DNA of 64,000 nucleotides from positions 13,394,501-13,458,500 of the forward strand of contig OY987244.1 of assembly GCA_963920765.1 (NCBI GenBank), written 5' to 3'. The stretch's first letter is position 1. Every line of letters begins with the position of its first letter. Positions 1 through 63,977 of this stretch are shown piece after piece. This stretch comes from Ulota crispa (lineage: Eukaryota; Streptophyta; Bryopsida; Orthotrichales; Orthotrichaceae). A program made the position numbers and the translations under genes. A model generated the notes under the pieces. It saw nothing but the letters and a program-made list of their open reading frames with translations. It was not told the DNA's origin and searched no databases.

Positions 1-310
1 AAGAGGACGGATTTGGGGAATTGGAATGTGAAGAGTTTAGGACAATAACCATGCTAATCTAAGGTAGCATGTGGCTAGAGGGTTGAACAAACTAAATGAG
101 TACCGGCTGAAAATACACCAATAAATGCAAAAAGGTGGCCATAACAACTAAAGAGTGAGCATAATTCATGATGTATAACACTAAATGCTGCAAGATACTT
201 CCATTTGTATGGTCAAATTTGTGGTAGACATCTATATTCAATAATCCTAAAATGTCCCCCGAATGGAAATACAAAGAATTGCCCACCCCAGAATTGACCA
301 CAATCGTTAA
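1..310. mobile_element. Partial TTAA-flanked element (right half)
   Basis: The last 30 bases before the TTAA at 307-310 (a CCCACCCCAGAATTGACCACA motif) match the right end of the TTAA element at 19578-20181, which has CCCACCCCAGAATCGACCAC before its terminal repeat. The body also aligns loosely with that element. The left end lies outside the window and the terminal GGG is degraded. It abuts the next element at the same TTAA. No gene is seen in it. Confidence 0.55.
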
Positions 311-1037
311 CCCCTAGAGGCACAAACACTGTTTTTTGGCAAAATAGTGAATTTGGGTAGCTCACTACAAGTGGATATTTTATTTTTTTTCTTTGAAAAT
401 TTCACACATGATGTATCCAAGTAGCAGCTTTAAGATCCAACAATTTTCATAACTTTTTACTGCATGATTCAAAAGTTATTGCATGATATGTTGTTTTTTT
501 TGAACTCCAGGTAGCCTAGGCAGCTTAAAAAACTTCTTTAAAATTTATTATTTTTTTAAATTTTTTTGAAATTGGTTCTTTAGACTTATGTTTACTTGGG
601 TAGCTTTGAACCATTCAATTTTGATTGATGATATGAAAGTTATGAGACATTTTAGTTTGTGGGTAGGTATGGAGCCATACCTACCCACAAACTAAAATGT
701 CTCATAACTTTCATATCATCAATCAAAATTGAATGGTTCAAAGCTACCCAAGTAAACATAAGTCTAAAGAACCAATTTCAAAAAAATTTAAAAAAATAAA
801 AAAATTTAAAGAAGTTTTTGAGCTGCCCAAATTGCCCGGAGTTCAAAAAAAAAAACATATCATGTAATAACTTTTGAATCATGCAGTAAAAAGTTATGAA
901 AATTGTTGGACCTTAAAGCTGCTCCTTGGATACATCATGTGTGAAATTTTCAAAGAAAAAAAATGAAACATCCACTTGTAGTGAGCTGCCCAAAGTCCAT
1001 TTTGTCTGAAAGGGACAAGTGGGCTTTTAGGGGTTGA
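307..1037. mobile_element. Fold-back TTAA element upstream of the sHSP gene
   Basis: This is a near-perfect long palindrome centred at 673/674 (GGGTAGGTATGG, two bases, then its complement). The arms are about 360 bp each and run out to TTAACCCCTAGAGG on the left and TTTTAGGGGTTGA on the right, where the terminal TTAA has mutated to TTGA. It belongs to the same broad class as 55491-56410 and 58102-58741, which share the arm motif around TCTTTAGACTTAT and the TCATAACTTTCAT stretch. A transcript through it would fold into a long hairpin. It ends about 240 bp before the heat-shock element of the downstream gene. Confidence 0.8.
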
Positions 1038-1277
1038 AGGGTTGAAGGGTTAAGGAGGTCTGAATCAACTCACAGCAAGACCAGCCCACCCGCCAGCCAC
1101 TGTCAAGCAAAGAGTTCGTCCCGTCTCCGCAGCCAAAGACCCAACCATCGGGATGGTGCCACCTGTCAAAGTCCATCTGGCAAATTGAGAATGCTCAATC
1201 AAGCTGACATGGCATCGGATCAGTCGTACTCACTGAATGGATTCATCCAGAACCGTCCTCTTCATCTCCCCTTCTTC

Positions 1278-4479: not shown

Positions 4480-5391
4480 CAAGTTGTTAATAAATGTGAG
4501 AGGTTTTAGAAAGCCCAGCTGTCTCCCCATGCCAATGTCACTAGAGAGGATAAGATATTATATATACACTGTGTACAATGTAATATATCAACACCACACT
4601 AAAGCATTCTTGCTACATTAAATGTCATGTACGCCGCAATTTTCTCTTCCTCTTCACCTCTATATCTTCGTACGCCCTTGCAACTGAGTTCAAACAAAAC
4701 TCCTACCAGAACTAGCTAAGATCTGCCTGGGAGCTCAACTGGATGCGCTTGCACAATTCTACAAACACACAAGTAGAGATATCAAGTTAGAGCAGCAATC
4801 AGAATGACATTAAGATGTTATTAAAACGAAACCATTGTAAGAATACATGCATTGAACCAAATGAATACATATCGTATGTAAAAATTTGAGCCCTCTTAAA
4901 GCCCCCTAATGTTTGACAAACCAAACTATTATTTGGCTATAGTGAGTATAAGAAAAATCACTCACATCCACAGTTATCTTGTATGAAGGACCTTAGCCAC
5001 ATGTTGCACATTACAAAACAATACAAAAGGCATTGCACTCATAAAACATGTAAATGTACTGACTAGTCATTATTCAAGTACTTCACTCATCTATTCAAAT
5101 AGAGTAAAATAGAATTTTTGATCTTATTGTACATTTGTACCCATTTTTTATGTCTAGTTGAAATAACATAATAATGTAATTTTCATGATTGCATTGAATT
5201 CAAAAAATGAGCAAAAATAGAAGATTAGTGATTTGTTTGTTGTAATAAGTACATATAATCTTAAGACCCTTTTATAGACTTTGAAGGGGACTCTTGGAGG
5301 GCCCAAAATTTTCGTTTGACAAACGACATTCCACATTAGCAATTCTCATTAAAACCATGCTGTTGTAAGTACCTGTTCCCGTTTGTAGCAT
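4480..5391. other. AT-rich spacer between the sHSP and glycosyltransferase genes
   Basis: The two genes converge here, so this is shared downstream sequence and probably includes the 3' UTR of the minus-strand glycosyltransferase near 5150-5391. No gene or clear repeat is seen. Confidence 0.4.
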
Positions 5392-8300
5392 CTAGAGATA
5401 GTTACATTCAGAAGGGACTCGCCAGAGCTTTGGCTGAGGCTGAGAGAGCGTATTGTTTCCTTCCTTCAGGGGATCAGACACTGCATCACGGTAGTTCTTC
5501 CAATCCTCCAGTGCCAGACGAAGATCGTTGAGCTTGCTACTCAACCCTAGGCAGCAATTTGAGTGCATGGTCACAACTTTGCTCATGTCTCGGCTAACCT
5601 GCACATGCGATCCAAATATACTTCCATAACTTACCTTCTTTTAAAGAGGCTGGGAAAAAAACACCTTAAGCTTCATCAGAATTATGGTTCCTTGTTTCCT
5701 GAAAAGTTCATAAAAATAAATTGTATTTGCGAAAGAGTCGTATAGCTTGTGAAAGCGTCAAAACGTGACACTCCGACAATTGACGCTGTTAGTGCCCTAC
5801 AGGCTACAGGCAGTTCACCCTATTATCATTGGGCCCAAATTCAAATATTAATTGCAAAAGTTACAATACATCAAAGTCATGGTTATGGTATCATCTCAAG
5901 ATAATCAAGTCTAGGTTTTGTATCAAGTTTCAAGTTCCTAAATAAGTGAAGTTTGTGTACTTAGAGATTTTGGTCATCATACATGATCATATGTTGTCAT
6001 TTTCATCTTTAGCCTTCTTCCTTTCCTTGGTCTTTGTGGTCTTCCATAAGTGTTAGCTAAGTTAATAAATTTCAGCTGTTTTTTGGTATTTTGTAATTGA
6101 CATGGCTATAGCTAAGGCGTTGAGACAATAAATTGTATATCTAATTGAGGTCTTCATAGCAAATATGCTTTATCTTTAGACAATTTTGATCAAATGAAAA
6201 AAAACTGCACTATTAAAGTAAAGAACAAACCTTTCTTGCAGTGCTTGTAAACCCAAATTTGAAACTAAATCCTAAAAGGTATGAATTTTGAAGATATTCT
6301 ATTTTTCAAAGTAAAGCAAGTTAAACTAAAAATGTTTCAAAGTGAGTGACACTTCCAAGAAGGCAAATCGGCTCGAATAAGGGACGATTACAGCATATCC
6401 GATGTTGGAACTGAGATAATACAGCATTGGACTTCAAATTAAGCGGCATGCAGCAGTGAAGTTTGTTTGAAAGGGAAGGAGTGAAACGATGATTATTTAC
6501 CTGACAAAATCCCGAGAAGAAGACGGTGTCGAAGAACTGCACCTTCAATCCAAGATCACGAATCAAACCGTCATGCTGTTTAAACAGGGAAGTGAGCACG
6601 TGCTGGTCGTTCTTGCCGGGGCTTTGCATGCCCGCTTGGTGCCAGTGGCGGTAGAAGGCGAGGGTGCGGTTGTTGCTGCGAGCGTACAAGAAGCCGGAGT
6701 TGGGGAAGTTGGCGTGCAGGTCGAAGGGCTTGTGCCGGAACCGATCCGTGGAGACCTGGAAGTCCATCGTCTCCGAAAATACTGTCAATGGGTTGCGGAA
6801 CCAGACGATGTCTCCGTCCTGCGTACAAGTCAGCTCTCAATTAACCTTTGAACGTTTCGAACGTCTAAATGTTTCTACTATTTCTTTATTTTATTTGTTA
6901 TTTATGTGTAGGGTAAGGGCCTCATGCAAGAGCATTCTCACACTCAAGTGATTGGCAATGAGGGCAGAGCCTAAAACGTCATATTCATTGATTTGGGAAC
7001 TATGTTTGAATTTGGGACTAATAGAGGTTTAAAGTTATCACCTTAAATCTAACTTTAGGATTAAGCAACTTTTTTTTTGGGTACACGTGCCCTCACCTGA
7101 GAGGAGGAATTTGCGAGAGAACTTAGTGACTCATATTGAATATGATAATTTTGAATATGGTTTAAGGTAACTTTTTGGGTTTAAGGTGAAGTTCAATTTG
7201 GGAACTGTGTTTTCCCAATTTAACAAATCCGGTGTTCCAAATAACTATTATTGTAGGTAAATGTGAGATTGTTTGTGCAAGAGGTCCTTACCTTGCTTAA
7301 TCCTTGCACATCTGAGCGTGCCACAACGATCAGCACAATACGAGATGTTTTTTTTGTATTTGGAATAAATTCACACCTTTACTACATTTGAGATCAATAA
7401 AGAAGTTCACATATTATTCATTAAATTGGAAAAAAACACTTTTTCAAAACATATTGTGAGAAATTTTTGGTGATTTGAAGTGAGGTTTTTTGATAATTCC
7501 TATAAGATATTTCAGGTTATGAAGAAACCTTCATAATATTCACTTTAAATCATTAAATCACCTAACTCTTAAAAATAAAAAGTTCAAAAGTCCCAATATG
7601 TAAGCTTTTTCCCATTTAATGAGTAATGCGTTCAATCAGTATCTACTATGCCCTGGGGACTTTTAAGAGTTAAAAATCGCCATGGAAACTTCTTGATTTT
7701 TTTTAAAGACGAATGTGACATTTATAATGTATTTGTGAGGATGAGTCAATGTAGTTACTAGTTAGTAGTGTGAGCGGATGGGATTGCAAAATCCTGAGAG
7801 AGAGACAGTAAGAGTGGTACCGAGAAGATGAAGCTGTAGCCAAGCTGCAACACGTCGCCCAGAAACTCGATTCTCCGCCTCATCATGAGCAAGAAATCCT
7901 GGCTCATGAACGGCTTCTCTGCGCCGAATTCCACGCCCGGAGTTCGCATTTGGAAGCAATGCGGGTGCAGCGCTAGGCATCGGTCGAAGGCCTTCTGGTC
8001 GACGCACACGATCACCACATGCTGCAGCAGAGGCAGGGTGCCCTCGCCGCTGCGAAAGCTCTCCAGGAACACATCGATCATGCTGTTGGTCGCCGCCCAC
8101 GCCTCGTTCAGCGTCGTGATGATTACCGTCTTGTTGCCCCCCATGGATGCCTGCTCTAGCACCTCCTCCAGCCCCTTCGGCACCCCAGGGCTCCTCCTCC
8201 CCCCCTGGAATCACCACCCCCGGTCAGCTAGCTCCACATATCAACCAACAGCCCCTTTGCATTTCCAAATTTGTACCAAAACCCGCCAAAACCCGAAATC

Positions 8301-11555: not shown

Positions 11556-11921
11556 TTAACCCTTAAACGTTGGGCTCATCCCCATGGCCAGCCGGCCCGG
11601 CCCGCTACAGTGACTTCTATAGTGTTTCTAAGAATTTTAGAACTATGATTGGTGTAACAAGTGTCCAGGTAGCTGCAAAAGTGAAGAGTATAGGCCAACC
11701 TCACAAAATTGTAGGAAGGGCAATATGGATCTTCTCATAATTTGGATTGTTTAAAAATATGAGTGTATTTAATGAAGTTATTTTTTGCCTTCCATGATGG
11801 AGCATGTGTTTATGATCACTTTTGGGAAAAAAATCAAATGAAAATCTGCTTTCTTCTACCATACCAAATGTTTTTTCAGAAGCAAAAAACAAAAAATGTT
11901 CTTCTAGACGTTTAGGGTTAA
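11556..11921. mobile_element. TTAA-flanked MITE
   Basis: TTAACCCTTAAACGTTGGGC at the left and ACGTTTAGGGTTAA at the right give matching inverted ends with TTAA outside. The right half (CTTCCATGATGGAGCATGTG, TTTATGATCACTT) matches the element at 17258-17610, so the two belong to one family. Confidence 0.75.
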
Positions 11922-12817: not shown

Positions 12818-13733
12818 TTAACCCTTTAAGGACCACGCGACCATGTTTTGGTTGCTAGGAGTGGTTTTTGGCGTGTAGGTTGAAATTGCTCAATAATTTG
12901 GAATTTGGTCTTGAAGTATGCATGTGATCACAAGAATTTTGCATCCATCTAAAAAAATAACAATGCAATCACGTATGTGAGTTGACAAATAATGATGTTT
13001 ATACGGCATGGCTTCAAAATACTTATCCATTTTTTTTCAAAGATGGATCAAAGCAACAACACAATACATCAAACATCCAAGAAGAATTTCAAATTTCAAT
13101 TGCACTATTCAAAAAAAATTCAAATTGCTTAAGAAATATGCTTGTATTGTTTTCCTATATGGTAGTAGTATAATTGTAGTATTTGAAGATCTACTAAAAT
13201 GGTGTAGTCATTTTTGGCTTTTAAATACGTCATCCTACATTTAAGGCCAATACTTCATTGTTTTCACTAATCAGATTTTCCATAACATTTATCAAATTTC
13301 TTGTAGAATTGTTTTAGGGTAGCAAAGAAAATGAGATTTTTTATCCTCTTTGTCCACTTAGCTACACCTTGTGATTGGTATTTTTGTCTATTTTGTGTGA
13401 AACTAGTCTTGTTGGAAAGGTGGGAAACCCAGCTTTCTAGAAATGTAAGGCTCTTTTCAATCAAAGCTTGCATGAAGCAGTAACATTCAAAACCACACAA
13501 GCATGAAACACTAAAGATTTTCTGCATACAACTGGCTCAATCATTATAATGTTTCACCTCCAATGGTAAATCTAGCTAAAATTTTGGTGCTTTAAAGTGA
13601 ACAAGGTGTACTTCCCATTTGTACAGTTGGATTACTAAAAATGGGTCCATATTTGAGTTAATTGCACATTTAAGCTTACAGCCCTTGTTTTTAGTGGATT
13701 TTGTGAAAATGGGTGTGGTCCTTAAAGGGTTAA
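12818..13733. mobile_element. TTAA-flanked element, 916 bp
   Basis: The left TTAACCCTTTAAGGACCACG and right GTGGTCCTTAAAGGGTTAA form terminal inverted repeats with the TTAA target. The whole element is collinear, in inverse orientation, with 33666-34571; both share the ACACCTTGTGATTG, GGAAAGGTGGGAAA and CAAGTGTTTC-type segments. The open frames at 12982-13527 are short and do not resemble any known transposase. Confidence 0.85.
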
Positions 13734-14301: not shown

Positions 14302-14382
14302 TTAACCCCTCAACTCTTGACCAGCAGAAATTTGGCTGCATTTTCCATGTACTTTGTGATACCCGGGGCGTTGAGGGGTTAA
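14302..14382. mobile_element. Minimal 81-bp TTAA element
   Basis: TTAACCCCTCAAC on the left and GTTGAGGGGTTAA on the right are exact 13-bp inverted repeats around only 55 internal bases. It may be an extreme deletion derivative or two facing ends. Confidence 0.5.
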
Positions 14383-14929
14383 GGGGTTGAAGCTTGCTAC
14401 CGGCTGTTATGGATAGATGGCATGTCGTTTTGTGTGGGCAAGGTGGAAAATCTAACCTTTTTCACCCAACAAAAAGTGTAAGAATTTAGATATTTACCAT
14501 CAGGAAATTGAATTAGGGAATTTTGAACTCGAATTTGGATTCATAAATCTTGATTCAATCTGGATTGATAGAGTATGACAAAATTAACCACCTCCAACAC
14601 ATGGCCACCTCCAACACATGGCCAAGGTGAATTGACTACCTCATTGACTTATTCAATTGTATCCACTTTTTTAATTCTGAACTAAAATAGGGTATGGAAG
14701 TTTGAATGAGAATTCAAAATTCCCAAATTTAATCCACTAATTGCAAAATTCTCAAAATTCCACAATTCTCAATATGTGAAAAAACTCTACTTTTTCACTC
14801 TAGTCATACAAATTCATAAAACAATTGACCAAGTTCTAGGCCCATCCATCCAAGCGGGGGGCAATGAGGGCCACTGTGAATCGACCCCCTCATTACCCTT
14901 TTCCTAAATGAATGGGTTTAGAGCTCAGG

Positions 14930-19058: not shown

Positions 19059-19581
19059 TTAACCCCTAAACGCCCAAGGGGATAAGGGCAAAACATAGAT
19101 GCATTTTAAAACAATATTTATGTAACTTTGATGAAGTTTGCTTCAAGAGAGAAAACAATAATCATGATGTTTTGTAATTATTCATATAATCAAACATTCA
19201 AAAGAAGTTTTGGATTTTTATTTAATGAATTTAGAAGCATTTACCATTTAATATTCACCAAAATTACAAATTTTATTCATGGATTTTAAAATTTGGTATG
19301 ATTTGTTAAAAACATACATTCTATAGTAAACTTCAAAAATGCAATCTTTTCAGAGGAGAGAACATCATTAGTTTCCCAAAATAGAAAATTTTACAACACT
19401 AACAAATATTGAAGTGTTTGTCTTTGAAAAATTATCCTTGATGGAGTTTAACTTCGATTGACATGATTCAAGTTGGATTGGAAAGTAGACTTGATTCTTC
19501 AACAAACAAAAAATCATCTCAAGAAGCCCGCAAAAGACGGGTAGCGACCAAAAAATGGTCAATTGAGTGCTTAGGGGTTAA
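19059..19581. mobile_element. TTAA-flanked element (CGCCCAA family)
   Basis: Left TTAACCCCTAAACGCCCAAG and right GAGTGCTTAGGGGTTAA. It is the inverse-oriented paralogue of 38358-39115 (shared GCAAAACATAGATG, GACCAAAAAATGGTC and the segment around TTACAACACTAACAAATATT). At 19407-19409 it keeps the empty target (ATA) that is filled by a CACTA MITE in the other copy. Confidence 0.85.
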
Positions 19582-20181
19582 CCCATTAAGGTTTGGTCAA
19601 TCAATTTTTGGTCCATTTTTACTCTTTTTAGTTGGTAGGGAGAGCATGTCAAGGAATTTGAGGATGCGGTAAAGGGGATAGGTGTAGGCAATTAGGAACC
19701 CCATAGTTTGGAACAAATATCAAGTTTAGCTAAGCTGCCACGTGGTCATGGCATTGGAAAAACTCAAGAAGTAGTATCTGCCAAAATACAAGAATGAATG
19801 TAGAAAGATGGTCATAATTGGTAAAGATTGAATATTTGTACGCGTTCCCAAGAATCCAAGTTTTCCCTAACCCATCATCAACCTAAAGAATTGCAACATA
19901 GTTCATTAAGTAACAAGAAAGAACAATACATAAAGAAAAACAATCCACCACTGTAGAAACCACCGTATTTGTACAAAAACGCATATGGATACATTTAAAC
20001 CTACCTGCAAACAAAATCAAACATTAAAAAATGATGCATACCCATAAACCATGCATGACATTGCCATCTGTATGGTTGAATCTTTTACATGCATTCGTAT
20101 TCTTTGTTAGTATGAGTTTTTCCAAAGCACCAGAAAAGGCCTTGCCCACCCCAGAATCGACCACAGGCCTTAATGGGTTAA
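19578..20181. mobile_element. TTAA-flanked element sharing its TTAA with the preceding one
   Basis: TTAACCCATTAAGG on the left and CCTTAATGGGTTAA on the right are exact 14-bp inverted repeats including the TTAA. It begins at the very TTAA (19578-19581) that ends the element before it. A half copy lies at 1-310. Confidence 0.85.
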
Positions 20182-33429: not shown

Positions 33430-33669
33430 TTAACCCTTAAAGGACCGAGGAGCCCTTTGCTGTCAATACAATATTTTGTATTTTTTTGTTTTTGGAATGT
33501 ATCCACACCTTTACTACATTTGAGATTAACAAAGAAGTTAGAATATAGATCAATGCGGTTCTAGTGAGCAAGTCAAGATCCCAAATTAAAACTTTTTATT
33601 GGTAGCAAATGCCAGTTATACGGCAGCATATTTACTATGTAATGTGTAAAGCGGTCCTTTAAGGGTTAA
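33430..33669. mobile_element. TTAA-flanked MITE, 240 bp, 18-bp perfect ends
   Basis: TTAACCCTTAAAGGACCG on the left is exactly complementary to CGGTCCTTTAAGGGTTAA on the right. These are the cleanest ends in the window. It shares the right TTAA (33666-33669) with the next element. A fragment of its interior lies at 7345-7420. Confidence 0.9.
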
Positions 33670-34571
33670 AGACCACACATGCTTTCACAAAATCCACTAG
33701 AAACCGGTGTGGTAAACTTAGATGTGGAATTCAATCAAATTTAGACCCAATTTTAATAATCCAACCATACATATGGGGAAAACACCTTGTTTATTATAAT
33801 TGTCAAAATTTCAATGAGATCTATCATTGGAGGTGAAGTATTATAATGATTGAGTGAGCTACAAGTGGGAAATCTCTAGTTTTTTGTGCTTGTGTGGTTT
33901 TGGATCTTACTGCTACATACAACATTTGCTTGAGAAGAGCCTTATACTTCTAGAAGGCACGCTTTCCCACCTTTCCAATAAGACTAGTTTCACACAAAAT
34001 AAATAAAAATAGCAATCACAAGGTGTAGCTAAGTGGACAAAAGGGGTAAAAAATCCCACTTTATTTGCTAACCCTAAAATGGTTTAACAAGATATTTGAA
34101 AAATTCTACAGAAAATATGATCGATGAAAACAATCAAGAAATGGCCTTAAGTGTAGGATGACAAATTTAAAAAATGAAATGATAGCACCATTTCAATAGA
34201 TTTTCAAATACCACAATTATATTGCTACTGTATAGGAAAACAATACAAGCGAATTTCTTAAGCAATTTGAAATTTTTAAGACATCACAATTGGAATGTGG
34301 CATTCTTCTTAGATGTTTGATGTATTGTATTGTTGCTTTGATCCATCTTTGACCAAATATGGATACGTATTTTGAGGCCATGATGTATAAACACCATTAT
34401 TTATCAACTCACATACACAATTCCATAGTTGTTTTTTTGGTTGGATGCAAAATTCTTATGATCACAAGCGTTCTTCAAAACCAATTTCCAAATTGTTGAG
34501 TGATTTTACTATATATGCCAAAAACCGCTCTCCTGAACCAAAATATGGCTGAGTGGTCTCTAAAGGGTTAA
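33666..34571. mobile_element. TTAA-flanked element, 906 bp, inverse copy of 12818-13733
   Basis: TTAAAGACCACACATG on the left (terminal CCC lost) and GAGTGGTCTCTAAAGGGTTAA-type right end. Collinear in reverse orientation with 12818-13733 along its length. No intact open frame remains. Confidence 0.8.
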
Positions 34572-47905: not shown

Positions 47906-48653
47906 TCTAGTATATATAAAAGAATCTTGTGGGATGTTTTGGATGAAAAGTAAAATAAAGCAAAGTAACACTAAAGTATGACAAATCACTAGAAGTTACA
48001 CCACTCACTACAAGTTATACCACAACACTTTATTTTATCTGCATATAACACTATTTTTTATTTGCTTCACCAAAAGTTAACAACATGTCATTGGCAATTG
48101 CACAACAATTTTCTCTCGGCCAATGGGGGGAACGGGGATATGGGAGGATGGAGAAAAGAGGCATAGGAATAGGGGGCATGGGGATAGGAGGGCACATGGA
48201 TATGGGGCACATGCAAATATAGGAGGGCAAATGCAAAGATAGAGGGACACGGGGATATGAGGCTTGGTAATAATTATTCATGGAGATAGGGGGGCCTGGG
48301 GATAGGGGGCATGGAGATAGGGGCACGAGGATGGAGGGGCATGAGGATAGGGGCACGGGGATAGGGGCACGGGAATGGGGAGCACGGGGATAGGGGGCGT
48401 AAGGATAGGGGGCATGGGAATAGGGAGGCACGTGAATAGGTGGCATGGAAATAGGAAGGCACGGGAATAGGGGGCATGGGAATAGGGAGGCACGAGAATA
48501 GGGGGCATGGGAATAAGGAGGTACGGGAATAGGGGGCACATGGATAGGAGGCATCGGGATAGGATGACACATGGATAAGATTGCTTTTGCACAATTTTTT
48601 TATTGCAAGGACATTTTTGTTGCCTCTGTTGGTACAACGGATACATAAACTAG
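47906..48653 (+). mobile_element. Non-autonomous Helitron in the Harbinger transposase
   Basis: It starts TCTAGTATATATAAAAG after a host A and ends with hairpin CTGTTGGTACAACGG, ATACATAAA, CTAG, before a host T. Removing it rejoins TGTTGTA and TATTGCAT, which restores the transposase reading CCILHNILLEHD. Its 3' hairpin (GTTGG-CAACGG) is like that of 40558-41205, so both are one family. Most of the interior is a G-rich minisatellite. Confidence 0.88.
48121..48570. repeat. G-rich minisatellite inside a Helitron
   Basis: About 450 bp of variants of GGGGCATGGGAATAGGGAGG and GGCACGGGGATAGG, unit about 12-24 bp, strongly strand-asymmetric (G on plus, C on minus). The proline-rich minus-strand open frames here are a by-product. 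Confidence 0.85.
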
Positions 48654-48790
48654 TATTGCATAATATTCTCTTAGAGCATGATAAAGTTGTTGATAAGGAT
48701 TTTTTATTTCTAGGCCATTATGATGAAGGTATGCATCAACAAATATCTAGAGAAGTCATGACAAGTGATGCAAAGCTAATAAATTAATCT

Positions 48791-51921: not shown

Positions 51922-52844
51922 TTAACCCCTAAAATTCTTTTGTGTTTAGAGGCCCAAAACTGCTTCAAAATACTAGTCCCCAAACTAGGGTCAAAATCTT
52001 CATTGAAACTTACTTTCTCACAAATCCAACCGTAGGATCCTTTGGTTGACTTGCACAACTACATTGTCCCAAAATTTCAGAATGAATATCCCCACCAATT
52101 GCAAGATCAATGTGCCTAAACTTCAAAGTGTAGGCTTTTCTAATCCTTCTAGAAGGTGAAGTTTTGTTTTTCAAACTTTTTAGAGAAAAGCATGTACATT
52201 GTATTTCTTGCGCAATTTTTGCAATATGTTGGAAAATTGGCTAAAAGCATACATAAAAAAATTTAACCAAAAAAAATTTTAGATTCATTTTTACAAAAAT
52301 TGTAAAGTGAAAGGTATTGATGAATGAAAGATGTAACTTATATGCTAATAAGTTTTGGAAGAATTTGAAAATTGTAAATCCCAATGGTGAGAATGCTTTA
52401 ACAGACAAGTAGTAACTTTAATTTTCATTTTCATTTGAAACTTTTCAAAATTGAGAGTAAAAGATAACTTTCTATATTTTTTCTACCCTCTTCCTACCTT
52501 CATTGCCCGCAAAAGAAAACTCCTTTTAACTCTTACCTCATTATTTGGAATTGAGTGATTCAATTTTTTTTTTGAGTAGGTATCAATCTATACAATTCTA
52601 TAAAAATAAAAATAAAAATTTTAGAATACATTTTTTGCTGCCTGGTTTGACATTGAAATTGAAAAAACCTTATAACTTTTGCATTACTTATTGGAATGAC
52701 ATGAAATAAAGCTTCACATGTAGATTATGATGAGTAGCATCCATCCTAAAAATTTCATGAAAAAATTTCAAATTATGAAGTCAATAGAGCCTACCCGAGT
52801 TCTCATAAAGCCCAAAGTGGGCTCCTTGGGCTTTTAGAGGTTAA
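51922..52844. mobile_element. TTAA-flanked element, 923 bp
   Basis: Left TTAACCCCTAAAATTC, right GGGCTTTTAGAGGTTAA. The right-end motif CCCAAAGTGGGCTCCTTGGG also occurs before 14302. It shares the right TTAA with the next element. Confidence 0.75.
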
Positions 52845-53077
52845 CCTCTGAGCACCCAGAGTAATTTTAGGATTTAGGAGAAAATGGGGGGTTTAATGGC
52901 CACCACAGCTTGGAAATTACATCCAAAAGAAGTGATCGCGGGATTTGAAAATGGACTACCTTCTTTGCTGATGGGGACCAACCATGACTGTTTTCACCGT
53001 ACGGATTGAGAGAAAAAGTGAGATAAAGTTTGTGGGCCCATTGATAGTATAATGTCAACCGGGCGCTCGGGGGTTAA
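52841..53077. mobile_element. TTAA-flanked MITE, 237 bp
   Basis: Left TTAACCTCTGAGCACCC, right GGGCGCTCGGGGGTTAA; inverted repeats with four mismatches, bounded by TTAA. It begins at the TTAA that ends the preceding element. Confidence 0.8.
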
Positions 53078-56410: not shown

Positions 56411-57177
56411 ATGATCGGGTATTGATGGTGCTACCTTACCCTTGTAAAATGAAAAAAAAGAAATCAGCACCTCAGCATTTTTCTCCTTATTTAGGGGTGT
56501 CATAATTTCATGTATATTTCTATAATTATTGCAGCAATGCAATTGGTGCGCATCTTGCCCAATCTCCGGGCCTGGTGCTGACTAGACAAAGGAAAAGCGT
56601 GCTCCTATCATGCTTCGGGACCAATAGGAGACTTGAGATTTGCATGACCAGATACTTGAAATGAACAACTTTTCAGGGGCACTGTCTACTGTGTAGACGT
56701 AGCTGAGGGGCCCGTAATTCCATTATGTTTTGGTCAGGGTAGAGTGGTAGACAGGTAGAGTGACCCTTGAGCCAAGATTTTGTACGCAGGAACTAATTTT
56801 GAGCTCAAAATCAATAAAAAAAGGGGAAATATCTAAAATGATCCTGACAATTGGTCTTACATTCATACTTGGTGTTAGGGGTATTAGCGAAGGAAAATTA
56901 AATGTCTTTGGACGCACTTTTAGACTACATTCATATTGCTAATACTTTTCCGAACACCAAGTGCAAATGTACTCTAGTCTTGACATTATGAAAATATCAG
57001 AAATAGGTCCAAGCAAACACTATGAGAAACCGTCCCTCTGAAAAACTTGTTCATCATGGTATCTCTCCCACCAAAACTAATTTTCTCATGATCTATTGCA
57101 AAATCAAGAACAAAAATTGAATCCAGGTCTTTGTAATCACACTCAAGTCCAACCCTTGAGGGATTTTGCTAAACGTC

Positions 57178-58105
57178 TTAACCCCTAAAGGACCATGGCC
57201 TTTATTTTGTCAAAAGACACTCAGAACTGCCACTTCTATGGCAAAGAGTAAAAAAGTTTGAAAATCGGTCTTTTTGCAAAATTAACCATAGGGTCTTCTA
57301 CTAGACTTGTATAAGAATGTGTCATTCAAAACTTAAAAACTCAACTAGCACAAATTGCAAGATATTTGCTTTTGAAGTATAAACAATAAGTTCTTTTGCA
57401 CCTTGCACCACTAGGTTATTTAACTTTAAACTTTTTTAACTTCAATTTTTTGCACCATGGAGTTTTGAGGTTTATTTTTTTATGCTGGGGAATTGAGTTG
57501 AGAATCTTTGGAAAAAAACCAAAACAAAAAATACTTAATTTTCATTCTTTACAAAAACATTAGGTAGAAGAAGGTATGAGATTGAACAAAAACTTAAATT
57601 GCTACTAACCTTGCAATGGAATTGAAACTCAATAATCCCAATGGTGAGGTTGTTCTAGACAGAAAACTTCACCCTCTCCAACAATTTTTTTGAAAAAACG
57701 TTAAGCTTCCATTCCAAAATGAATTGTATAAGTTATTTTTTCAAGAGGATGCTTGAATTGCCCAAAAAACAAGATTGTCCATAACTTTCTCATAACTAGT
57801 CCAAATGGAATGAATCAAAGCTTCAAATGTAAAAAAAGATATAATCTACAAGGGAAAAAAATTTAAAAAATTAAATCAAGTTTTTGTACATAATTTTTTG
57901 CTGCCCGGGCCCCCCAAATTTTTGGTTATTTGGGCATAACTTTTGCTCCTTGGTATTGATTGGAATAAAAATCATATTCCCCAAAAGCTAATGTGTTTTC
58001 CTATCTTCAAAAAAAGTTTTAAAAATCATGACACAAATTGAGGCCCTAGGTACCTGCCCAAAATTCCATTTGTTTCCCAAAGGACAATGGTCCTTTAGGG
58101 GTTAA
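57178..58105. mobile_element. TTAA-flanked element, 928 bp
   Basis: TTAACCCCTAAAGGACCAT on the left and ATGGTCCTTTAGGGGTTAA-type right end give 18-19 matching terminal bases including TTAA. Its right TTAA (58102-58105) is the left TTAA of the next element. Confidence 0.88.
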
Positions 58106-58741
58106 CCCCAAAAAGACTATTGGCCCTTTTGGGGGTCAAATGGGATTTTGGGCATGTACTTACAACTAAATTGCTTTGTGTGATTTTTTGAAACTTTTGT
58201 GAATGATGGGGAATTCAAAGATTTAAGTGGGCATTTAGTTTTTACTTCATTATGACATTTATTGAAGAAGTTAAAAATGAATTTATGGAAAACAAGTGAG
58301 ATCGGGCAGCCAAATTTTTTCCTTAAAAATTTCATTTAAAAAATATATATATATCAAATAAACTCTTTATACTTATATAGGTTTAGAGCGTTTAATCATT
58401 CAATTTTGATATATGAGATGAAAGTCATGAGAAGTTTTAGTTTGCGGGTAGGTGTCCCCACCTATATATAAGTCTAAAGAACCTATTTGATATTTTTATT
58501 TGTTTAAACGCAATTTTTAAGGTAGTTTTTGGGCTGCCCAATCTTGCTTGTTTTCCATAAATTCATTTTTAACTTCTTCAATAAATGCCAGAATGAAGTA
58601 AAAACTAAATCCCCACTTAAATCTTTGAATTCCCCATCATTCATAGAAGATTCAAAAAATCACAAAAAGCTATTTAGTTGTAAGTACATGCCCAAAATTC
58701 CATTTGACCCCCAAAAGGGCCAACAATGTTTTAGGGGTTAA
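58102..58741. mobile_element. TTAA-flanked fold-back element, 640 bp
   Basis: The arms are complementary nearly end to end: GTCAAATGGGATTTTGGGCA on the left and TGCCCAAAATTCCATTTGAC on the right; the turn is near 58430-58470. Ends TTAACCCCAAAAAG and TTTTAGGGGTTAA. Related to 307-1037 and the left third of 55491-56410. Confidence 0.88.
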
Positions 58742-58990
58742 GATGTTTAGCAAAATCCCTCAAGGTTTGGACTTGAGTGTGATTACAAAGACTTGGATTC
58801 AATTTTTGTTCTTGATTTTATAATGTATCATGAGAAAATTAGTTTCAGTGGGAGAGATACCATGATGAATAAGTTTTTTAGAGGGATAGTTTCTCATAGT
58901 ATTTGCTCAGGCTTATTTCTGATATTTTCAGAATGTCAGGACTAGTTTCAAAATAAGACCAATTGTCAGGATCATTTTTGATATTTCCCC

Positions 58991-61789
58991 TAAAAAATAC
59001 ATTAAAAATAGGAAGTTTTTGGAGGGATGAACATTTGTATTGTACAATATAAGGCCACATGTACATATTTATAGGTGATATGTAATATTTGGATAAATAA
59101 GCTAGACTTACATCTCACGACTCACGGATCACAATTTAGCATTCCTCTACATGCAGATAAGGAAAATTTGGTTGGATTTGGAAAGAGTGAATGATATGTG
59201 AGTTCATCCAAAATATTACTAATATAAGTTACTTTCATTCAAAATTTGGCAAAAGGTTTTTGCTCAAGGAGGGATAAATTTCTTATGGTGATGATAGCTA
59301 GAGGCAATTTGAGGTAAATTTAGGCAAAAATTTGTTAGAAAAAGGAACTTTGGTAAAGCAGGGTGAAAAAATGCTATTTTTTCACTAGCCAAAAAATGTG
59401 AGAGTTTAGATATTTACCATCGAGAGATTGAGTTTGGGAATTTTAGATTCATAATTAAATCTAGAGACCCTGCTGTAATCCAAAACCTAGTAAGAGAATA
59501 CAATTGAACAACAAAAAATAGGGAGCAAATTATTATTACCCTTGTTTGAAAAACAGATCAAGCTTTTTCACCTTGATCCCACATTGATGTATGTGTAGTA
59601 ATTGAGCCCTTTTCAAGTGTACGCACTCGGTTGACTAAATTGGTGGAAGCAGCAAAATGGTACTATAAGGGCATCTTCACTGGTGCCCTCCCAGGATTTG
59701 ACACATGCCCAAAGTGGATGAAAGTGCCAAGGACCCTTTCAAAACCCTCTCAAAAAGCTTTGTCTTACCGTTTCTAACATGGGTCCTTCAAGATACTATT
59801 CATTGCTATGCATTATCCTTTACTTTTCTTGATAAGTGGTCAAATAATTATTTATAGGGCATGTTGAAGTACAATGCTACCTATTTAAAAAACATGGGTG
59901 AAAATCAAGGAGCTTTAAGGGCCCTTTAAAATTAGATGGAAACCCTTGAACGAGCCAAGACCAATGGAGATGCTCTAAAACCCTAAAATGCGGCGCCTTT
60001 GAGTTTTGTCCCGTGCAAGTCTAGGGTAGAAATAAAACTTGGATGGGCAAAAAATGAAAATAAAAAATAGGGGCCAAATAAAAACTTTGAAGGGTTTTTT
60101 GGATGGGTAAAAAAATGGCGGCCAAAAAGAAGCTTGTAGGCTTTGCGGATGGGTTCAAAAGCGACGTTTTAAGTTAGAATACTTTATCATCAAAGAGGTG
60201 CATGGTTTGGCACAAATTTTATCGCAACAAATATTCTTCATTTTGATGGAAGTACAATTTCACAACATCCAGCAGCATCATTGCAAGCTTTAGCGAGCAA
60301 TTTTTGCCACTTACTATAAGTGAGGAAAAGTGGACTACGGACAATAATATTGGGTCCTTGAGGTCAGGTTATCAAGCTAGTTTATCACTTGATGAGCGAT
60401 AGGTTTTTTCTTGATAAAACTTGCATGATACGTAGGTGTTTTTCTATCCTAACTTTGAAACTATCGTAAAATTAAGCTTGGAAGTTGACCATGAAAAAAC
60501 TCATCCATTTCAAGTGAGTAGTTTTTTCTTGGGCTTGGTTTGAGATTTTTTTCCTCATTGGAACCTAATGTAGGATGGCTTAATTCTCTTAAAAGTTCTT
60601 CACACTATCTCCCATGTCCCCACTAAAATCTCAAAATACAAGTGGCAGAGAGCTAGAATGGGGACAATTAAAGACTTAAAACATTGCGTGCAAGAGCTAT
60701 GTGATTGACTAAATAATAATTAAGTATGTCTAAAAAGAAATTTTGGTATGTTCTTCAACTATGTGAGTAGTTGGATCATTGAATGTTTAATGTCTTTTGT
60801 GCAAAGCTTTTGAATCATTTCATGCAGAGATGGAAGCAAAGAGAAAAAACTTGCACAAATGAAGATCTCATTGCTGAAATCTTCGTAGGCCGTGATTTAT
60901 TTTGACCATATGGCTTCAGATCGACATGCCCCTGCGGTCTTCGTTGTTGAGATTCCTTCACCGTAAATTTGTAGGGTTGTATCCAAACCGACATGTATAT
61001 AGTTTTGGTCAAAATCTGATAAAATTTACTCAAAAAGAGAACCACCGGACTGAGGACTGCCATATACGCTTCTATGGCGAGCAATATAAGAGCATCTCCT
61101 TCAGCACGTTAGAATAGTCCTTTGCGTTCAACCCGTAACGGCTTCTCCTATTCAAGTCCCCAAGAGCACTTGACACGTCTCTGTGCAGGTCGCAAATTGA
61201 GCTGCATACCTGTTAAATTTCAGCTTTCTCTATGCCTCCTTCACGGTCCCTAGCAAGCACTGTTCACGCATTGTTCACTCACGACCCCACTCCATAGCCA
61301 GGTGTACCCGTGCAATTCGTTGTTATGCATGTGCAAGTCCAAAAGGTTTCAGAGCTGCAGGAGAACTTCAAGCTTCAACGTGAAGGTTTGCGTCATTCTC
61401 CCCGTGAAATCTCATTTATCCAAGTGTTACAAAGCGTGCTGCAGGAGATCCCTAAGGGTCCTGCGAGTGCCATGCGGCTTGCTTTGCGATGTGGGGCCAA
61501 GGTGCTTTTTCACATTACAATTTTTTTGAAATTTCAAAATTTCACTATCTACAAATGGAATTTGAGAATTTTGAATTCAGATTTGGATTCAAAGGCGCTG
61601 CATTAGTTTGCAGACTCTAGAAGAGATTATAATTGAACAAATAAAAAATAGGGGGCATATTATCACTATTATCTCTACTACTTGGAAATTGGCTCCACAC
61701 CCACATAGCACTCGCAAGACCAAAATATCGTCAAACCACATCCATTGCCAAAAGTAAAATGAAAGCCTTGATAAAGCGCCCTCTCACAC
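58991..61789. other. Spacer with sparse repeats
   Basis: Holds the element at 59668-59976. Open frames at 60815-61117 and 61302-61606 are unrecognised, although 61280-61500 is somewhat richer in GC. No gene is supported. Confidence 0.35.
59668..59976. mobile_element. MITE with AGRGCATCTYCAYTGGT ends
   Basis: AGGGCATCTTCACTGGTGCC on the left and GACCAATGGAGATGCTCT on the right are inverted ends around about 270 bp. A related end, AGAGCATCTCCTTCAGC, stands alone at 61089. No clear target duplication; superfamily is unassigned. Confidence 0.55.
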
Positions 61790-63006: not shown

Positions 63007-63764
63007 TTAGTCCCTGAGCGCCCAGGCTGTATCCACCAAAATCGGGGTTTTTGGAGATCGACAACTTTGATGTATCGTATCTCAATCAATCAGATGATCC
63101 ACAAAAAATGATCATTGAAAATAGTGAAACGCCTACTAAGAAGAAGGCTTGCAAATTCTAGGAACAACTCATCGTGGGAGATGGGAGATTATAGCATTTG
63201 ATCAAACAACATGTGATGACAAAATTTCATTTTTTGGTAAGTAGTTGCTATTTGATAATTTTTACAAAATTCTATAAGCCCCGGATTCATCTCAAATTTT
63301 GTGAGCAGCAAGATCAAAAGTGAATGCACACACTTGTAAATTATTGAAGATGTCAAGTTTTAGGGCTTCAAATTGCTAATGCACGGAAAACAATAACCGC
63401 CACAATTGGTGACAGTTGCCATAATAAGGGTCTAGAACATGCTTGAACACTTGCCAACAACTTTTTCGCTACCACAAAGCTTACACAAGGAAGCTTGCAT
63501 GGGATATTGACCGATTGCAGCATGTAAAACGTTGCTTGCTAAATTGCCCCCATTGCCCCGTACAGTGTTTCACCAAATCAAATCTCTTGCAACGCTTATA
63601 CAATAATTTGGCTTTCCTTGCCATTACTCCATTGACATGAACAACTTGAATGCCTTCATAATTGTAGTTTATAGCAAGACCAAAAAATTAGATCCAATGC
63701 CTCAAAACAAGGTTTTAAAATCTGGAGCGACCAGAATCTGGTTGCTAGGGCACTCAGGAGTTAA
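63007..63764. mobile_element. TTAA-type element, 758 bp
   Basis: Left TTAGTCCCTGAGCGCCC (TTAA mutated to TTAG) and right GGGCACTCAGGAGTTAA. The ends match 52841-53077 (CTCTGAGCACCC) better than the CTAAAGGACC group. It shares the right TTAA with the next element. Confidence 0.7.
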
Positions 63765-63977
63765 CCCCTAAAGGGCCCTTGGGCTCTAGAGCTACGGTAC
63801 CAAATATAGTTCCAACTAATATTCAAAAGTTTGTATCAACTAGAAATTAAGTGTTACAACCATACATATTGAAGGGTTGTATGATGGATGCATCATTTTT
63901 TTTGGAAAGCCCTCATAGCAGCTCAAATACATCTGTACATATGGCCACAAAAGACTTTTGTGACGTTTAGGGGTTAA
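63761..63977. mobile_element. TTAA-flanked MITE, 217 bp
   Basis: Left TTAACCCCTAAAGGGCCC, right GTGACGTTTAGGGGTTAA; the outer 12 bases match exactly. It begins at the TTAA ending the previous element. Confidence 0.82.

Follow-up and report, generated by a model that had tools for sequence, protein, structure and literature searches.

Double insertion of transposable elements on one target-site duplication has already been described. In the available text of a review (PMC12628747), which apparently cites McGurk and Barbash (2018, Genome Research), two elements are inserted at a single target site; as at the junctions described here, the later element uses the target-site duplication of the earlier one and the two share it. 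There, elements of the same type form tandems, whereas at 26 of our 29 junctions the two partners share no match, with a same-family pair at locus L023. The coral CMITEs, according to the available part of PMC2872659, resemble the elements studied here in being short and non-coding, in their TTAA duplication and in their CC[C/T]T-type ends, and include one that is reported to have arisen when a TTAA between two direct repeats received an insertion. CMITE arrays consist of tandem copies of one element and are ascribed to replication slippage, whereas here unlike elements abut. The autonomous piggyBac superfamily (PF13843) is the third close system, and its transposase domain, TTAA edges and CCC-starting inverted ends are all found in two elements of about 5 kb in the same genome. 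Judged by eye, the ends of these two resemble the MITE ends, the agreement extending over a short stretch only. Among open-licence papers, we found no report of unlike piggyBac MITEs in this exact pattern.

The window, that is, the whole stretch of 64,000 nucleotides that was analysed (C3:13394501-13458500 of a 274.8-Mb genome in 157 contigs), contains about 20 short TTAA elements of the piggyBac type, which start with TTAA-CCC and finish with GGG-TTAA. They combine the features by which MITEs are recognized: a TTAA duplication with CCC-starting inverted ends, short length, lack of coding capacity and many copies. Genome-wide, the two strands carry 26778 and 26839 exact copies of TTAACCCC, compared to 4949 and 4995 for the reversed control, an excess of approximately 21,800 per strand. 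Ends were scored with a weight matrix built from a 264-kb sample, consisting of the window and 20 loci (L005-L024) that together carry the 22 GGGGTTAACCCC sites at the head of the list for contig C1 and are therefore a non-random sample. At a score of at least 4, the matrix recovered 223 of 3906 TTAA sides in this sample versus 10 of 7460 in reversed controls. Among the 443 TTAAs of the window, 18 right-facing and 22 left-facing ends scored at least 0. A second TTAA lies at most 16 bp from the end in 37 of the 221 ends in the sample, mostly 7 or 8 bp in; examples of terminal repeats with an inner TTAA 7-8 bp inside are CCCTTAAA and CCCTTTAAA.

No piggyBac-like frames were recognised by eye in the open reading frame lists of the window and the junction loci. 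Frames in L019 resemble a retroelement (by eye), and others resemble starch phosphorylase, small heat-shock, WRKY and expansin proteins, which we take by eye to be land-plant-like genes. Long proline-rich repetitive frames at 48051-48717 on the minus strand of the window are probably a tandem repeat, not a gene, again as judged by eye.

The piggyBac transposase domain PF13843 (DDE_Tnp_1_7) has at least 120 matches in the genome (best E-value 1.3e-73) and none in 14 control genomes. By our own count, about 110 of the 120 matches listed contain stop codons. Two of eight transposase loci examined are TTAA elements, at C3:13130262-13135288 (~5.0 kb) and C2:15046195-15051296 (~5.1 kb), with ends CCCCTCATCGCC / CCCTTCATTGCC and CCCTTGACCGCC / CCCTTCACCGCC, respectively; no end was found within 1.5 kb at the other six. 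Of three frames compared, two match PF13843 and one matches nothing. The genome's autonomous elements thus carry the DDE_Tnp_1_7 domain, and the likeness of the ends suggests that their transposase may move the MITEs. The loci with transposase copies include L025, L030, L033 and L034. Two pairs of matches with the same score lie on opposite strands, roughly 15-20 kb apart (C7:18203169 / 18223004 and C2:36765124 / 36779670), which suggests recent inverted duplications.

The sequence-only reading had listed seven positions, one of them (14302) as probable, at which a pair of elements shares one TTAA. At four of these, 19578, 52841, 58102 and 63761, terminal repeats indeed flank one TTAA on both sides, the right side of 19578 with a low matrix score of 3.6. 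Exact GGGGTTAACCCC is present at only one of the four true junctions, 58102, where it occupies 58098-58109. The remaining three positions, 307, 14302 and 33666, have a different anatomy: one partner lacks the C-run and starts at a TTAA that lies at, or matches a place within, the terminal repeat of its relatives. We interpret these three as insertions into a TTAA within the terminal repeat of the partner. The left partner at 307 starts with TTAA-CGAT-TGTGGTC, and the aligned relative at 20178 reads CCCA-TTAA-GGCC-TGTGGTC; a severed tip, GGGG-TTGA-AGGG-TTGA-AGGG-TTAA, lies beyond the insert and ends at 1053. The left partner at 14302 starts where its 52841 relative reads TTTA, 4 bp inside the end, and again the severed tip is found beyond the insert (TTAA-GGGG-TTGA at 14379-14390). 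At 33666, the right partner (element B in Table 1) starts with TTAA-AGACCACAC, and its aligned relative (12818-13730) has TTAA-CCCT-TTAA-GGACCACAC. Element A appears to have entered a TTAA in element B's terminal repeat; left of 33430, where the tip would be expected, none is clearly recognisable, and there is only a doubtful TAAC-TTAG-TTTAA.

The paired elements span 77-930 bp. At 11556, a further candidate junction, only one of the two sides shows a good end. In L012, a third element at 5930 is joined to the 5004 junction, a triple stack of which there are too few to count. The 58102 pair is centred in a large near-palindrome (window 56822-58991) whose outer flanks mirror each other around the TTAA; its arms are 56974-57189 / 58730-58945 (91% complementary) and 56822-56869 / 58944-58991 (90%).

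Table 1. Elements at the junctions of the window, with their ends and relatives
Feature	Positions	Ends and other details	Relatives
Element A	33430..33669	240 bp including both TTAAs; ends CCCTTAAAGGACCG / CCCTTAAAGGACCG; TIR pairing score 14	Left-terminal likeness in L018, L023, L012
Element B	33666..34571	~0.9 kb; starts at internal TTAA of repeat, tip missing; right end CCCTTTAGAGACCAC intact	12818-13730 (aligned); a further relative, with ends at L034:1997 and L034:2906
Putative insert in inner TTAA of left partner's repeat	307..1037	Own right end GGGG-TTGA at 1030-1037	
Putative severed tip(s) of split repeat	1038..1053	AGGG-TTGA-AGGG-TTAA	
81-bp element, putatively in left partner's inner TTAA	14302..14382	Tip GGGG-TTGA next, 14383-14390	L014
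19578 left partner	19059..19581	Ends CCCCTAAACGCC / CCCCTAAGCACT; pairing score 9	
19578 right partner	19578..20181	CCCATTAAGG at both ends; pairing score 12	
52841 left partner	51922..52844	Ends CCCCTAAAATTC / CCTCTAAAAGCCC; high-copy family; start inferred from relatives	916-bp relatives in L008, L022
52841 right partner	52841..53077	237 bp including both TTAAs	
58102 left partner	57178..58105	928 bp; ends CCCCTAAAGGACC	
58102 right partner	58102..58741	640 bp; near-palindromic, 242-nt arms	
63761 left partner		Right end CTCCTGAGTGCCC at 63764	
63761 right partner	63761..63977	Ends CCCCTAAAGGGCCC / CCCCTAAACGTC	

We consider it probable that these arrangements arose by repeated independent double insertion, clustered near older elements and with the edge favoured at most weakly. 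The elements of the window are short, non-autonomous piggyBac-type MITEs that require TTAA. Each insertion leaves a TTAA at both edges, and some repeats offer a second one 7-8 bp in. A later element, usually of another family, would create a shared-TTAA abutment by entering an edge TTAA, and a split terminal repeat by entering an inner one. The paired elements would be separate insertions, with no moving pair, and insertions cluster near older elements for a reason that we infer rather than observe.

Shared junctions had been claimed to be far above chance. In the window, the four shared junctions compare with 0.89 expected by independence (Poisson P 0.013) and with 0.82 expected from the mean of TTAA lags 1-39. 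The comparison with a random TTAA model was extended to the genome by exact pattern counts, in place of a full annotation. Exact GGGGTTAACCCC occurs 1074 times, its reversed control three times, and the independence expectation is about 340-380, given 1.9-2.1 million TTAAs in the genome as estimated from densities; this amounts to a 2.8-3.2-fold excess. The claim therefore stands against a uniform model, at about threefold, but is weak when the local rate is taken as the reference. Statistics of uniform placement taken alone were discarded as misleading, given that TTAAs close to ends already have an elevated rate. The abutments reach about three times the uniform expectation because insertions cluster near older elements, and most of the excess consists of this clustering together with the fresh edge TTAA that each insertion provides.

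The clustering is visible as a distance gradient. We defined the rate as the share of TTAAs outside a GGGGTTAA end that are themselves TTAACCCC. From a genome mean of about 0.013-0.014, this rate rises to about 0.019 at 400-430 bp from the end (119 matches, with an assumed TTAA density of 0.0075), 0.0231 at 61-91 bp (149/6439), 0.0342 at 0-30 bp (228/6658) and 0.0400 at the shared TTAA itself (1074/26839). The repeat-internal TTAA has a rate of 0.046 (TTAACCCTTAACCCC 262 / TTAACCCTTAA 5658), which is 2.0 times that at 61-91 bp. The shared TTAA exceeds the 61-91 bp class 1.73-fold (Fisher p 1e-11) and all TTAAs 0-30 bp away 1.17-fold (p 0.03). The denominators 6439 and 6658 are reverse counts, for which the listings suggest one per TTAA; counted per end (denominators 5653 and 5787), the ratios drop to about 1.5 and 1.0, respectively. 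In the 0-30 bp class, 12-15 of 50 listed plus-strand places are, by eye, TTAA-CCC-TTAA, its complement or near it, and TTAA-CCC-TTAA is the stub left behind by an inner-TTAA insertion. With the stub share of the denominator put at about 13%, by eye from some 100 listed places, the stub-free 0-30 bp rate is about 0.028-0.030 and the shared TTAA exceeds it by about 1.3-1.45-fold.

The steady rise in rate with proximity is what would be expected if insertions simply gathered where the DNA is accessible or AT-rich, without any special role for the edge TTAA, and we give such purely regional clustering somewhat less than an even chance. A lag test in the 264-kb sample, which omits the junction at position 5004, is consistent with it: the rate was 0.080 (8/100) at lag 0 versus 0.062 per TTAA at lags 1-20 (p 0.28). 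The per-end ratio of about 1.0 to the 0-30 bp class points the same way. Since the genome-wide excess over the 61-91 bp class is significant, however, clustering at that distance is not the whole explanation, and the excess over stub-free 0-30 bp TTAAs, with stub shares estimated by eye, also speaks against it. We conclude that any preference for the edge is weak at most and sits on top of the clustering gradient.

Such a preference might reflect self-targeting, in which transposase on a resident terminal repeat draws an incoming element and the TTAAs at or just inside repeats are hot spots. Rates do climb towards the end and peak at the edge and repeat-internal TTAAs, which exceed the 61-91 bp class by factors of 1.7 and 2.0, respectively; the internal excess may be larger than its ratio indicates, because that site would be usable only after the first insertion. 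The small or vanishing excess over the 0-30 bp class (per TTAA and per end, respectively) counts against self-targeting, which we regard as doubtful. The proposal that the transposase prefers the palindromic junction made by an earlier insertion retains an edge excess over the 61-91 bp class, and little at 0-30 bp. A single insertion makes no GGGGTTAACCCC, and therefore at most the half-site GGGGTTAA could attract.

Target context also bears on self-targeting. Directly outside the TTAA of single insertions, GG occurs 22 times versus 6.7 expected and CC 8 times versus 4.5 expected, among 175 flanks from L005-L024 and the window, a set that retains some inner-TTAA cases. GG is thus about three times as frequent as next to other TTAAs, possibly a target preference beyond TTAA. 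It does not explain the excess at edge TTAAs, because what an older element presents there is CC. The inner site offers CC-TTAA, and base preference may explain the repeat-internal insertions without self-targeting. Insertions around ends are asymmetric between inside and outside. Among TTAAs 10-120 bp from ends in the sample, nested starts were found at 0 of 103 inside and 10 of 151 outside, and at 120-240 bp at 6 of 201 inside and 12 of 136 outside. Roughly half the outside rate would be expected inside elements because interiors are presumably exposed for less time, and the complete absence at 10-120 bp inside is a further point against self-targeting.

A more specific idea, which we put forward as unlikely but worth stating, is that resident repeats serve as landing marks: bound piggyBac machinery would steer newcomers to the edge and repeat-internal TTAAs and so stack unlike elements. 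If so, the rise in rate across a few hundred bases, peaking at the two repeat TTAAs, would be the trace of this steering.

Independent double insertion can also be contrasted with a composite, in which two abutting elements are mobilized jointly through their outer ends. We compared the partners over their nearest 250 bp at 29 junctions, the seven of the window and 22 strict ones. At 26 there was no match, and at L015 only 17 bp; partners as copies of each other are therefore rejected for 27 of the 29. The partners of 58102 and L023 are related. For the window, the observation that the partners are not copies of each other is confirmed at six of seven positions, whereas at 58102 the partners are related (96 bp alike at 74%). 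L023:4761-5248 contains one 243-bp element twice, head to tail on a shared TTAA and 79% alike, possibly the seed of a tandem array.

Whether the same pair recurs differs between the two junctions searched. A 164-nt query across 58102 is matched over its full length at 78-85% at seven or more other loci, and at least seven more span the junction, so that this pair recurs at at least 14 other loci; 40 of 2560 candidates were scored, and these numbers are lower bounds. Each half also occurs alone, ending at TTAA, with up to 92% identity for the left and 94% for the right. Three of the 14 loci (L035, L036 and L037) were read to their outer ends. The likeness starts at the outer left TTAA in each and reaches the outer right TTAA in L035 and L037, ending 24 bp short of it in L036, while the flanks (60-160 bp per side) do not match. 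These like outer ends at first favoured a composite unit at 58102, although independent insertions by the same two families would produce them as well.

The composite unit was rejected after phylogenetic analysis of the partners. The left-partner tree (seven rows) set the same-pair copies of the window, L035, L036 and L037 against copies from L005, L018 and L010, the last of which abuts another family at 5004; the L018 and L010 rows were shortened for the tree and longer in the AU test. In this tree L035 and L037 are sisters (98/96), the window copy stands apart, and L005 and L018, which lack the 58102 right partner, fall among the same-pair copies. The right-partner tree (nine rows) compared the window, L035, L036, L037 and L021 with L007, L008, L019 and L033, the orientation of these four being chosen by alignment score. 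Here, the window groups with L035 (94/95, just below the program's mark) and L036 with L037 (98/98), so the two trees disagree. The AU test rejected the same-pair copies as one clade for both the left (p 0.002, four versus three rows) and the right partner (p 0.027, five versus four).

The 52841 pair gives a similar picture. None of its 39 other scored matches (40 of 2105 candidates were scored) covers both sides, the longest extending about 24 nt past the TTAA, and its halves occur separately with up to 95% identity. At four loci (L038-L041), picked for a match 14-16 nt past the TTAA and thus giving no rate, the right element abuts another element each time, from two families at two loci each. 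In a five-row tree of the right element, a branch with 100/99 support unites copies whose partners differ and parts loci with the same partner family. Both pairs thus point to separate insertions of abundant families.

A single origin of a pair with a common partner history was thus found in none of the trees (seven, nine and five rows), whereas elements that also occur alone, with one duplication between them, were found at 58102 and 52841 by genome-wide search. The suggestion that the pairs move as composites is weakened by these results, despite the recurrence of 58102; we hold it improbable, and repeated independent insertion fits better. Some loci of the 58102 type may have a partial composite history, given the sister grouping of L035 and L037 in the left-partner tree, and precise excision of one partner could also make same-pair copies look polyphyletic. 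That a junction is internal to a single longer element, for which the recurrence of 58102 alone speaks, is highly improbable and is rejected for 58102 and 52841, where either half is also found alone.

Repeated independent double insertion thus indicates how a strict four-base target combined with many copies leads unlike elements to stack at one site. Such stacked pairs can mislead annotation, as they resemble composites or longer elements. The distance series used here offers a simple means of telling self-targeting and clustering apart and can be applied to any genome with TTAA elements. Finally, the many piggyBac transposase copies in a land-plant-like genome are useful for asking what limits such elements.
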